Source: Paracoccus sp. (in: a-proteobacteria)
GTDB lineage: Bacteria; Pseudomonadota; Alphaproteobacteria; Rhodobacterales; Rhodobacteraceae
DNA: 33,845 nucleotides
Assembly: GCF_030536915.1 (NCBI RefSeq)
Contig: NZ_JAUNPC010000022.1
Span: forward strand, 3,219-37,063
Direction: 5' to 3'
The notes under the pieces: model-generated
The model's input: the letters and a program-made list of their open reading frames with translations, nothing else
The model's database searches: none
Told to the model about the DNA's origin: nothing
Made by a program: the position numbers and the translations under genes
In this document: positions 15,590 through 20,596 of the stretch, in pieces
How positions within the stretch are numbered: the stretch's first letter is position 1
Layout of the letters: every line of letters starts with the position of its first letter

Positions 15590-15629
15590 AAAAGGCGGCA
15601 GGGCCTCCCCCGCCCAGCCGCCTGCCGCC
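15590..15629 (-). terminator. Terminator-like hairpin between gp4 and gp5
   Basis: Reading the minus strand, GGCGGCAGG (15629-15621) pairs perfectly over 9 bp with CCTGCCGCC (15602-15594) and is followed at once by TTTTC (15593-15589). The loop is 18 nt and G-rich. The hairpin ends about 10 bases before the gp5 ribosome-binding site. Either an intrinsic terminator or a 5' stabiliser of the capsid message would look like this. Confidence 0.55.
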
Positions 15630-17744: not shown

Positions 17745-17764
17745 GCGTGCCTCCTGACCCAAAG

Positions 17765-17794
17765 AAAAAGGGCCGCCCCCACGGACGACCCCTT
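17765..17794 (-). terminator. Terminator-like hairpin between gp2 and gp3
   Basis: On the minus strand GGGTCGTCC (17791-17783) pairs with GGGCGGCCC (17778-17770) over 9 bp, including two G-U pairs, with a GTGG loop. A-U pairs can extend the base, and TTTTTC follows (17769-17764). This is a convincing rho-independent terminator shape in the middle of the operon, 20 bases before the portal start codon. Confidence 0.6.
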
Positions 17795-17818
17795 CGATCC
17801 TGCCAATGCCCCGAAAGC

Positions 17819-17865: not shown

Positions 17866-19251
17866 CTACAGCCCCCGAACCTGAGGCCGCCGATAGCTCG
17901 CGGCAGGCTCGACCATCAGCTCATGGACCGCCCAGACCAGCGCATCAAGCCGATCAGGGCTGCCCCTCCCCTCGAACCCCCGCACCGTCATCCGGCACAT
18001 CTGGTCCTCCAAGGCCCCCAGCCCGCCCGAACCCAGGTGCTTCACCCGCCCCTGCTCATACAGCGCCGCCACCGGCTCGGCCCGCAGCCCCTTGCCGCGA
18101 CCGGCGCGCAAGGCCCGGAACGGCACCAGAGGATCCACCTGCCGGATCACGCTCTCGACCAGATCACCGCCCTGGTTGACCTCGGCCACCAACCGCTCGG
18201 CCCCATGCCGCTCAACCGCCGCGATCGCCGCCCGCGCCCAGTCCAAAGGCCCGCCCCGTACCGAGGCATCCTCCAGCACGAACGCCCGCCACTCCTGCGG
18301 CGGCCCCTCGCAGACGACCCCCGCGACCACGATCCCGCACTCGTCGCTGGCAGCCCCAGACGTCACCGCCGGGTCCACCGCCACCACCACCCGATCCAGC
18401 GCGGGCGCCGCATCCACCCGGCAGCCCTCCAGCATCGCCGTCGTCCACAGCGCCCCCTCAACGTCGTCCAGCAGCACGCCCTCCAGCTCCTGCCACCCCA
18501 GCCGCGTCCCGGCATAGCGCGCCTGAACCTCGGCGAGGAAGCTTTCCGCCAGATAGGCCCGGTTCGCATCCGTCGGCGCGTGCGTCACCACCGTCGAGGC
18601 ATTCCGCAGGATCGCCTTCAGCACCCCCACGTTGCGCGGAGTCGTCGTGACCACCTGCTGCGGGTTCTCCCCCAGCCGCAGCGCGAACTGTAGCATGTCC
18701 CAGGTGTCCTCGGCCTTCTTCCACTTGGCCAGTTCATCCACCCAGGCCGCGTCGAACTGAGGCCCCCGCAGCGCCTCAGGCTCATGCGCCGAATAGACCG
18801 TGGCCGTCGCCCCGTTGGGCCAGACGAGCCGCCGCCGCCCCGCCTCCCACACCGGCCGCCGGTCCGGTGGACAGCAGGCCAGAATTCCCGAGTCCCCCAT
18901 CACCATCACATCGCGCCCTTGGTCGAAGGTCTCGGCCACCAGCGCCACGCGCCGCGCCCGCCCCGGCGCGTCAAACGTAGCCCCCTCGACCTGCGCACGC
19001 ACCCATTCGGACCCCGCGCGGGTCTTGCCCGCGCCGCGCCCGCCCATGATCACCCAGGACTTCCAGTCGCCCGCGGGGGGCAACTGGTGCGGCAGGGCCC
19101 AGAACTCGAACAGCCACGGCAGGCTGGCCAGCGCGTTGTCCGACAGCCCGGAAATGAAGGCGTCAACCTCCCCCGGCCCGGCGCAGGCAAGCCAGGCGGC
19201 GCCCGATCTCGTCTCGTGCGGCGGCAAGGTCGAGGCGGCCGGCCCCGACAT
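17866..19251 (-). CDS. GTA gp2, terminase large subunit
   Basis: A 461-residue terminase large subunit, homologue of RcGTA gp2, the packaging ATPase and headful nuclease. Walker A is GGRGAGKT (70-77) and Walker B ends FDAAWVDELAKW with Asp172-Glu173; TTTPRN around 203 is the coupling motif. The nuclease domain starts near VVVAVDPAVTSG (Asp293), and VAEVNQGGD is also typical. ATG 19251 is chosen; an in-frame TTG at 19281 has AAAGGAA upstream and would add 10 residues. Either start lies inside gp1, giving an 89-119 bp overlap, because no start codon exists after the gp1 stop. Confidence 0.95.
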   Translation of the reverse strand: MSGPAASTLPPHETRSGAAWLACAGPGEVDAFISGLSDNALASLPWLFEFWALPHQLPPAGDWKSWVIMGGRGAGKTRAGSEWVRAQVEGATFDAPGRARRVALVAETFDQGRDVMVMGDSGILACCPPDRRPVWEAGRRRLVWPNGATATVYSAHEPEALRGPQFDAAWVDELAKWKKAEDTWDMLQFALRLGENPQQVVTTTPRNVGVLKAILRNASTVVTHAPTDANRAYLAESFLAEVQARYAGTRLGWQELEGVLLDDVEGALWTTAMLEGCRVDAAPALDRVVVAVDPAVTSGAASDECGIVVAGVVCEGPPQEWRAFVLEDASVRGGPLDWARAAIAAVERHGAERLVAEVNQGGDLVESVIRQVDPLVPFRALRAGRGKGLRAEPVAALYEQGRVKHLGSGGLGALEDQMCRMTVRGFEGRGSPDRLDALVWAVHELMVEPAASYRRPQVRGL

Positions 19252-19531
19252 CTCCGGCGACTTCCTTGCGAAGCTTGTCAACTCGGTTCCTTTCCTCCAG
19301 CACCAACTGGGTCGCGACCCGCAGGTCGCGCACCAGCCTCGCGGTGTCCTTGACGTCCTCGGTGCTGCCGCCCCGCAGCCCGATCCTCAGCCTGTGCAGC
19401 TCCTCGGCCACTTCGCGAAACATCTCGCCCGCGACGTCGATTGCCTCGCCCGCGCCAAGCTCCCCCTCGTTCCCCCCGGCAACGAACGGTCCCGCCAGGG
19501 GTTCGCCCCCCGGCTCGAAGCTCATGTCCAT
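19163..19531 (-). CDS. GTA gp1, small terminase
   Basis: A 122-residue protein in the position of RcGTA gp1, described as the GTA small terminase that helps load DNA for headful packaging. The sequence is highly charged and helical from about 15 to 110 (REVAEELHRLRIGLRGG, then LVLEERNRVDKLRKEVAG), which suggests an oligomeric coiled coil. I see no helix-turn-helix. The ATG at 19531 (or 19525) gives the conserved-looking start but has only a weak GCAGGG upstream. A GTG at 19600 overlaps the stop of an 11-codon leader frame as GTGA and would add 23 residues; this alternative cannot be excluded. The last 89 bases overlap gp2. Confidence 0.82.
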   Translation of the reverse strand: MDMSFEPGGEPLAGPFVAGGNEGELGAGEAIDVAGEMFREVAEELHRLRIGLRGGSTEDVKDTARLVRDLRVATQLVLEERNRVDKLRKEVAGDVGAGRLDLAAARDEIGRRLACLRRAGGG

Positions 19532-19578
19532 GTTGTTGATGCCCTGCCCCCGGTGCCTGTCCGCACGAGCAAGAAACG

Positions 19579-19614
19579 AAAAAGCGGCCCAAGGTCTCAC
19601 CGACCCGGCCGCTT
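19579..19614 (-). terminator. Intrinsic terminator/attenuator in the GTA leader
   Basis: On the minus strand AAGCGGCC (19614-19607) pairs with GGCCGCTT (19589-19582). Inside it GGTC (19605-19602) pairs with GACC (19596-19593), loop GGTGA. The stem runs into TTTTT (19583-19579). It lies between the promoter at 19667-19639 and gp1, so a transcript from that promoter would be only about 54 nt unless the structure is bypassed. The 5' arm is made of codons 7-9 of the leader open frame. Confidence 0.62.
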
Positions 19615-19632
19615 GCCCACCTCTTCCAGCAT
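19597..19632 (-). CDS. Putative 11-residue GTA leader peptide
   Basis: A small open frame, MLEEVGKRPGR then TGA. Its ATG (19632-19630) begins seven bases after the -10 box, exactly where transcription is expected to start, so it would be translated as a leaderless message. Codons 7-9 form the 5' arm of the terminator, and the stop lies in its loop. A ribosome reaching the end would melt the hairpin and could allow read-through into gp1. The stop overlaps a GTG (19600) that is in frame with gp1. There is no run of a regulatory amino acid; two Glu, two Arg and two Gly only. Whether it is translated is unknown. Confidence 0.4.
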   Translation of the reverse strand: MLEEVGKRPGR

Positions 19633-19638
19633 GTCGAA

Positions 19639-19667
19639 TGTATATCCGAGACCGTTCGCAAAGTCAA
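19639..19667 (-). promoter_or_regulatory. Near-consensus sigma-70 promoter of the GTA operon
   Basis: Reading the minus strand, TTGACT (19667-19662) and TATACA (19644-19639) are separated by exactly 17 bp. This is the best housekeeping-type promoter I found in the window. The predicted start is at about 19632, and gp1 begins about 100 bases downstream. Direct repeats GTGTTGCG abut the -35 element and recur further upstream. Confidence 0.65.
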
Positions 19668-19997: not shown

Positions 19998-20276
19998 TCA
20001 AGCAGCGACTGCTCGCGCAGCCTGACCCATATGGGTTGCGGGCACGAACCCGGCGCTCTTCGCCGCCGAGATGAAGGCCCGGCGCGCGGTGCCGACAGAA
20101 GCCAGGCACTCCATGGCCGCTTCCACCTGGTGCAGCGCACGGTCACGGGCATGGTCCGACACCGGCCATTTCTTCCGCAGCCAGTATCGGGCCTGCTCGG
20201 CCGTGGTGATTTCCTGGATGTCGCCATTCGGCGACATGACAAAGGACAGGGGCTTGCCCCAGTTAATTTCAATCAA
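19998..20276 (-). CDS. DUF982 domain protein
   Basis: A 92-residue DUF982 protein. The family pattern is complete: INWGKPLSFVM near the start, an EITTAEQARYWLRKKWPV segment, HQVEAAMECLASVG in the middle, and the terminal ARRAFISAAKSAGFV. These small proteins are common in Rhizobiales and Rhodobacterales plasmids and chromosomes and have no known function. No ATG gives the full domain; a TTG at 20276 gives the expected N-terminus (IEINWGKP) with a weak GAAAGAA upstream. A TTG at 20318 would add 14 residues. It lies 113 bp downstream of the cold-shock gene in the same direction. Confidence 0.8.
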   Translation of the reverse strand: MIEINWGKPLSFVMSPNGDIQEITTAEQARYWLRKKWPVSDHARDRALHQVEAAMECLASVGTARRAFISAAKSAGFVPATHMGQAARAVAA

Positions 20277-20389
20277 CGTCAGTTCTTTCGTGAAGAGGCG
20301 AGTTCCGGCGCGTCGCAACGCTGCCGGCTCTCAGGGAAGGCGGGCCTGCCCAAGGGCGGCCCAGACTTCAGGATGTCGCAGATTGTCGC

Positions 20390-20596
20390 TTAGGTGAGAA
20401 CGAGGTTCACCGCCGACTCGCGCCCGTTGCGGTCACGTTCCATATCGAACGAGGCCGTCTGGCCGTCGTTCAGCTGGTGGATGCCGGCATGTTCAAGCGC
20501 GGACACATGAACGAACACGTCCTTCGATCCGCTTTCGGGCTGGATAAAGCCGAAGCTCTTGATGGCGTTGAACCATTTTACGGTGCCATTGGCCAT
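20390..20596 (-). CDS. Cold-shock protein, CspA family
   Basis: A 68-residue single cold-shock domain protein, an RNA chaperone that binds single-stranded RNA and DNA. The N-terminus MANGTVKWFN is canonical. RNP1 is KSFGFI (residues 13-18) and RNP2 is VFVHVSA (27-33). The usual Gly of the KGFGFI form of RNP1 is Ser here. ATG 20596 has AAAGGAA eight bases upstream. The 5' leader is long: a heat-shock-like promoter motif at 20734-20706 would give about 100 nt, similar in length to other cold-shock leaders. Several paralogues usually exist per genome, so no specific csp symbol is given. Confidence 0.95.
   Translation of the reverse strand: MANGTVKWFNAIKSFGFIQPESGSKDVFVHVSALEHAGIHQLNDGQTASFDMERDRNGRESAVNLVLT

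Follow-up and report, generated by a model that had tools for sequence, protein, structure and literature searches.

Gene transfer agents (GTAs) are domesticated virus particles that shuttle DNA between bacteria. Their production kills the producing cell, and how the GTA operon is kept off and then transcribed from end to end is therefore a central question. It is raised by a short leader upstream of gp1 in a GTA cluster of Paracoccus sp. (contig NZ_JAUNPC010000022.1; the whole analysed stretch, 33,845 nucleotides, is called the window below): does a hairpin placed between the promoter and the genes stop RNA polymerase, and if so, what would allow the enzyme to pass?

Promoter, hairpins and first genes of the cluster

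The features considered are as follows.

19639..19667 (-): GTA promoter, −35 TTGACT, 17-base spacer, −10 TATACA (sequence; genus and family alignments; position matches the R. capsulatus rpoD17 promoter)
19653..19658 (-): spacer element CGAACG between −35 and −10 (conserved in the genus)
19597..19632 (-): predicted +1 (19632) and 11-codon frame (the frame itself is not conserved)
19571..19625 (-): hairpin H1, upper stem AAGCGGCC/GGCCGCTT with inner stem, plus lower stem (fold, covariation)
19579..19583 (-): T-tract at which a transcript of about 50-54 nt would be released (sequence; T-tract scoring)
19546..19570 (-): hairpin H2, between the T-tract and gp1 (fold, covariation)
19163..19531 (-): gp1, putative small terminase (assigned by its position and likeness to RcGTA g1; no family found in Pfam or NCBIfam)
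17866..19281 (-): large terminase, TerL (PF03237, E 3.5e-25; PF17289, E 1.6e-12)
17757..17795 (-): T2, intrinsic-terminator-type hairpin between TerL and portal (window scan; genus gaps)
15593..15623 (-): T3, strong terminator-type hairpin in the gap between protease and capsid genes (limited to close relatives)

On the minus strand the cluster runs gp1, TerL, portal, protease and capsid, the last four being identified by Pfam; RcGTA g1, which gp1 resembles, is reported to be TerS (PMC6854486). About 330 bases without a recognised gene lie upstream of the promoter, and beyond them, on the same strand, are genes for a DUF982 protein (19998-20318) and a cold-shock protein (20390-20596).

A check of the sequence bore out the promoter of the original prediction: TTGACT (19667-19662) and TATACA (19644-19639) are followed, after six bases, by an ATG (19632-19630) placed at the predicted +1. 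The −35 hexamer is well conserved, TTGAC being present in all but two of the 109 genus leaders (107/109), but the epithet "strong" is doubtful, as the genus −10 is TAGAA followed by A in only 54%. The rpoD17 promoter of R. capsulatus occupies the corresponding place, and its deletion is reported to abolish reporter expression (PMC3999984). Within the genus the spacer element CGAACG is conserved nearly as well as the −35 (86-99% per base in the 109 leaders, falling to 45-68% in the ungapped family profile), and it may be considered a candidate GafA site. The 12 bases directly upstream of the −35 are merely 29-54% conserved in the family.

The arms of the predicted hairpin, AAGCGGCC (19614-19607, codons 7-9 of the short frame) and GGCCGCTT (19589-19582), are followed by TTTTT at 19583-19579 (+50 to +54), 47 bases upstream of gp1 (ATG at 19531), and the 63-nt leader RNA folds at −29.5 kcal/mol (z −3.07). 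The terminator-type hairpin expected about 50 bases before gp1 is thus present and conserved, and its upper stem and T-run had been placed correctly, but H1 proved longer than predicted: a lower stem is formed between a purine-rich 5′ segment and the T-run together with the bases that follow the latter, and H2 comes next. The T-run may therefore serve both as a terminator tail and, after read-through, as part of a long stem. A simple H2 hairpin occurs in 109/109 genus and 53/57 family leaders (a count made without a shuffle control); by eye, its 3′ arm often carries GAGAGG, 10-15 nt from the gp1 ATG. A simple consensus scan lists neither the promoter nor the terminator of the leader: the final T is missing from the −10, and an inner bulge interrupts the stem. 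A bidirectional terminator was rejected, the opposite strand having no T-run after the hairpin.

Conservation and covariation of the leader

TerL was found in 119 of 125 genomes of the genus and in 263 of 295 genomes of the family. From the former, 110 loci were read (the nine not included were in part fragmentary), one of which, L110, is cut by a contig end and stands outside the counts of 109; the set from other genera comprised 60 loci out of the 263 TerL-positive family genomes, with better TerL matches favoured. Upstream of the terminase genes, the leader was present in each of the 110 genus loci (one being the locus cut short) and in 57 of the 60 loci of other genera. The observation of the leader therefore stands, and its conservation is far wider than originally described. 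Replicons of Paracoccus pantotrophus, versutus, ferrooxidans and denitrificans align with the leader region at 76-81% identity and 57-77% query coverage. The genome that contains the window has a single match to the leader model, a further hit (E 0.47) being taken as noise.

The figure of 57/60 refers to a leader HMM (nhmmer) at E ≤ 1, which left out L153, L157 and L161 and recovered L164 only at 0.05. A covariance model matched 56/60 family loci at E ≤ 0.01 (not L153, L157, L164 and L171), gave a spurious opposite-strand match in L123, and matched all 43 genus loci tried; both models had been trained on many of the leaders that they then matched. A hairpin with dG ≤ −10 and, directly after it, four or more T in five bases was present in every leader scored (109/109 in the genus; 57/57 in the family, with L153, L157 and L161 excluded), compared with 30/218 and 8/114 dinucleotide shuffles, respectively, and a chance origin of the hairpin and T-tract was rejected on these grounds. 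L153, scanned separately, has a strong hairpin with TTTT. L157 and L161, whose genomes both carry DUF6456, keep the lower stem while the terminator is weak in the former (−9.0) and absent in the latter; in some lineages, then, the long stem is important in its own right.

Compensatory changes were counted in two alignments. In the first (A1; 63 leaders, not fitted to the structure), the 15 pairs of H1 were formed in 91.8% of cells, as against 48-60% when slid, and there were 32 double-change cells versus 7.2 in shuffles. RNAalifold predicted no pairs on this raw MAFFT alignment, because the arms were misaligned in some rows; after this null result, the structure was specified from the sequence, its pairs were counted, and the leaders were realigned with a covariance model. 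In the resulting family alignment (A2, fitted to the structure model), both sides changed in 20 of 22 pairs, and 93 double-change cells were found versus 21.9 in shuffles; pairing reached 90.8% of cells in the lower stem, 94.2% in the upper stem and 80.2% in H2. Covariation within the genus was weak (7 double-change cells versus 2.6; three pairs with a double change versus 1.8, a value reached by 83 of 500 shuffles), and H2 was 70.8% paired there in the family register; the genus alignment adds little because it is too uniform.

At the variable positions of the 5′ segment the changes are mostly from purine to purine, with pairing kept. In two pairs beside the upper stem, the base opposite G is predominantly U and seldom C (40:6 and 45:1 in the family; 39:2 and 40:1 in the genus), and U itself is therefore kept although C would pair better.

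Outside the family the leader model found no match: the 385 class genomes searched included five of the family, of which three were recovered (the window's own genome and two more) and two were missed. Loci from 20 of the 92 TerL-positive class genomes of other families were also examined. In two of three genomes of one of these families (f135) the same plan was seen by eye (TTGTGACACGCTGAGAG or close to it, then a hairpin with TTTTT), and the third shares the first bases; in the remaining 17 of the 20 loci, no such leader was detected by the scan. The two f135 leaders (L189:700-790 and L192:674-780, TerL strand) have a palindrome, GGATTTTCGAAAATCC, between −35 and −10, perfect in L189 and near-perfect in L192; it recalls the GafZ element of Caulobacter, yet these genomes gave no DUF6456 match. 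The phage records searched yielded merely short pieces matching the leader, at E ≥ 0.7.

Three genus genomes without a TerL match (L206, L207 and L208) retain the leader, and in two of them (L206 and L208) apparent GTA remnants, as judged by eye, lie next to it. In another genus (L174:1500-3068), the TerL N-terminus runs in frame into a late tail-tip (gp15-like) protein, as judged by eye; this is an internal deletion that left the leader intact.

The short frame, the stem-loop deletion and rival readings

The frame that begins at the predicted +1 in the window (ATG CTG GAA GAG GTG GGC AAG CGG CCG GGT CGG TGA; 11 codons, 19632-19597) suggested translation-coupled attenuation, in which a ribosome on this leaderless frame blocks the hairpin. 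The 5′ arm does coincide with codons 7-9 of the window's frame, and the +1 ATG is present in 108 of 109 genus leaders. However, ATG is found at +1 in only 28 of 57 family leaders, the others having AAG (19), AGG (5), ACG (3), ATA (1) or CAG (1), and the natural AAG, AGG and ACG variants point against any need for ATG. The frames of the 108 ATG-bearing genus leaders are 10, 11, 13, 28, 30, 32-34 or 38 codons long, with 33 still open within the 125 nt read, and exactly 11 codons occur in 28 of 109. The start of the T-tract is spread over all three frames (38/35/33 among the 106 genus leaders that contain TTTT), and codons 2-9 differ from the genus consensus by 59 synonymous and 90 non-synonymous changes. 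Conservation in relatives, on which the original prediction was staked, therefore upholds the hairpin and fails the short frame, and with the neutral stem-loop deletion described below it makes attenuation by a translating ribosome very improbable. The conserved leader frame overlapping the terminator that marks a ribosome-controlled attenuator was not found in the genus or family leaders. A riboswitch, T-box or other RNA-only attenuator was rejected, since about 18 nt of RNA before the 5′ arm of H1 leave no room for an aptamer; Rfam gave no match at gathering in the window and, at E ≤ 10 on the leader stretch, three eukaryotic families far below their cut-offs. Given this short 5′ segment and the lack of a conserved frame, neither a ribosome nor an RNA switch fits.

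Deletion data are available from R. capsulatus. Mercer et al. (2014; PMC3999984) report that a promoter deletion (−129 to −100) lowered fluorescence from 14.0 to 2.8 (no-promoter control, 3.2), whereas a deletion (−73 to −46) that was made as a control and removed a putative RNA stem-loop at −74 to −51 of orfg1 gave orfg2′-′lacZ fluorescence very similar to the wild type in two replicates. The text available from that paper presents the element as a putative stem-loop and deletion control and does not term it a terminator; about 3% of cells are stated there to make 95% of RcGTA. The stem-loop starts about 26 bases after the −10 (25 in the window) and ends at −51, like the upper stem of H1, and the two, matched by position and spacing only, are very likely the same hairpin. 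The stem-loop itself is therefore not new; in the literature searched, which left most subscription journals outside, the leader is not described as an attenuator or terminator.

The stem-loop is not a strong gate on early-gene expression in R. capsulatus under the conditions used, which weakens the proposal that GTA production is gated at this point. If unmodified polymerase frequently stopped there, deletion should have raised expression, and this argues against antitermination. The neutral result fits a terminator that is already crossed by GafA-loaded polymerase and equally fits a stem without a role; it says nothing about distal genes, because the fusion was at orfg2. The leader thus poses a puzzle: the hairpin is kept by compensatory mutation across the family, yet its likely counterpart could be deleted with an early-gene reporter unaffected.

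Could the conservation reflect a role after transcription, with H1 capping the 5′ end of the long GTA mRNA, H2 holding the ribosome-binding region of gp1, and termination minor or absent? The lower stem covaries with the T-run included and survives in L157 and L161, and an H2-like hairpin, its 3′ arm often carrying GAGAGG, is present in nearly all leaders; but the deleted stem-loop left a translational orfg2 fusion unchanged, the T-tract retains U where C would pair better, and GAGAGG is rather far from the gp1 ATG. Such a structured leader is, in our judgement, unlikely. The hairpin may instead be a plain terminator that holds back basal or read-through transcription in most cells, lacks a dedicated antiterminator, and is overwhelmed by GafA-driven initiation. 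The presence of a terminator-type hairpin in every scored leader and the neutrality of the deletion in stationary cultures agree with this, but a terminator lying downstream of the GTA promoter, and T2 again in Paracoccus, would tax wanted transcription, and leakage in many non-producing cells should have lifted the population mean after deletion; this explanation, too, seems improbable. A relic or neutral sequence, conserved by recent descent or chance only, would account for the leaders that persist in the TerL-less loci L206, L207 and L208 and in the fused, decayed cluster of L174, but the compensatory changes across genera, set against the poorly conserved 12 bases upstream of the −35, make it scarcely tenable.

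GafA, proposed antitermination and known late operons

The genome has one strong DUF6456 protein (E 1.8e-56), the sole match above the cut-off; it is composed of an HTH and DUF6456, and its gene adjoins that of lipoyl synthase. PF20057 (DUF6456), which we take to be the GafZ-like family, gives matches in Caulobacter and beside lipA here, which bears out the GafZ-like identity but is not proof of it. The neighbourhood of gafA is reported to include lipoyl synthase (Fogg 2019; PMC6363796), and the DUF6456 protein is the apparent gafA homologue. In a set of 30 genomes that were chosen rather than drawn at random, DUF6456 was present in all 11 leader-positive genomes and, of 19 without a leader-model match, in 8 and absent from 11, an association confounded by kinship and by the choice. 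DUF6456 was not found in the three f135 genomes, two of which have a similar leader, and this case speaks against a strict link between the two.

In Caulobacter, GafZ is described as an antiterminator that enables polymerase to pass a terminator and depends on an element located between −35 and −10, and its authors suggest that GafA may have unrecognised antitermination activity (PMC11150451). GafY and GafZ are reported to correspond to the two ends of GafA (PMC11150451; PMC9632790). The C-terminal region of GafA binds an R. capsulatus fragment containing the −35, the −10 and the TSS (PMC9638019; PMC6363796), and R. capsulatus GafA contacts polymerase through omega, which, according to the text available, was not seen for GafZ (PMC11150451).

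Further terminator-type hairpins lie within the operon. T2 ends about 21 bases upstream of the portal ATG (17744), and 15-29 bases upstream in genus loci in which the portal start was found. Some terminator was present in the TerL-portal gap of 29/30 loci in a first genus set (28 of T2 type by eye) and of 18/20 in a second (17 of T2 type by eye; shuffles 16/60), four genomes being common to both. T2 is not a family-wide feature (5/16 family gaps, 4 of 20 having been set aside as odd in length, versus 11/48 shuffles). T3 was not conserved either (3/18 genus and 2/18 family gaps, two of 20 being set aside as odd in length in each set; shuffles 2/54 and 0/54). Weaker terminator matches were listed by the window scan inside genes as well. 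T2 is so close to the portal ATG that there is no room for a promoter, and portal transcription initiated upstream must therefore cross it; transcription of the Paracoccus structural genes from the predicted GTA promoter must then cross at least two terminator-type hairpins.

The locus holds a promoter, a spacer element, a hairpin with a T-tract, H2 and an internal terminator-type hairpin, and the genome holds a gafA homologue. We infer that the hairpins terminate transcription and that, in this family, GafA acts as an antiterminator and does so at the leader. We tentatively favour, at somewhat below even chances, the reading in which the GTA late operon has in its leader an intrinsic terminator close to the promoter, which GafA-modified polymerase crosses. 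Polymerase that starts at the GTA promoter without the activator would tend to stop after about 50 nt. GafA would load onto polymerase at the promoter via its GafZ-like DUF6456 domain, probably at the CGAACG spacer element, and the loaded enzyme would read through the leader hairpin and, in Paracoccus, through T2 just before the portal gene. GafA-dependent initiation would probably still be the main switch, the terminator forming a second lock against leakage.

Against antitermination stand the neutral deletion in R. capsulatus, L157 and L161, the lack of a clear −10-like pause, the f135 genomes and the restriction of T2 to part of the family, as well as the presence of DUF6456 in 8 of the 19 genomes that the leader model did not match, the RNAalifold null and the contact of GafA with omega, unlike GafZ. 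A variant in which the leader RNA, with its two hairpins, is a cis-acting, put/nut-like antitermination element that works with GafA and Nus factors on terminators deep in the operon would reconcile deep conservation with the neutral deletion, because the reporter was at orfg2, before the TerL-portal gap and the remaining operon; we nevertheless hold it to be quite unlikely. An antiterminator, the second of the two options originally offered beside control of initiation, is the one that retains support, though held at a little less than even confidence, and the leader would by analogy work like those of the Q and AlpA late operons.

With those systems the leader shares, at the sequence level, an intrinsic terminator just downstream of the promoter (109/109 and 57/57 leaders). 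Their −10-like pause element was not recognised in the +5 to +10 register, the only one compared, where the genus has TGGGAG (2/6 to TATAAT) and the window TGGAAG (3/6); in family leaders an A at +6 in 52% gives a TAGAAG-like sequence (4/6). As the pause element is wanting in Paracoccus and the antiterminator activity of GafA is only putative, the leader is not classed as a member of this group. The leader terminator is also nearer to +1 than in lambda. Phage Q late operons are similarly built, with a late promoter, a spacer element and a terminator downstream of the promoter (PMC6606751), unlike which the Paracoccus leaders have no clear −10-like pause sequence. The AlpA-dependent alpB promoter of Pseudomonas aeruginosa likewise combines a host-encoded factor, a −35/−10 element, a downstream intrinsic terminator and a lytic output (PMC9371919), although the activator here is a different protein.

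The closest likeness in operon type is to GafY/GafZ of Caulobacter crescentus, which has an activator homologous to GafA, a spacer element (GCGCCCG-CTGGCGC, compared with CGAACG here) and a terminator crossed by an antiterminator, GafZ being described as without sequence or structural likeness to known antiterminators (PMC11150451). The Caulobacter terminator, terGTA, consists of three 150-bp repeats that follow the first gene, gtaT, and the leader there is about 230-250 nt long (PMC11150451); here, in contrast, a hairpin of roughly 30 nt lies before gp1 and, T-tract included, ends about 50 nt from the predicted +1. It is this hairpin at +50, together with T2 in Paracoccus, that predicts that GafA, known as an activator, should be an antiterminator in the Rhodobacteraceae as well.
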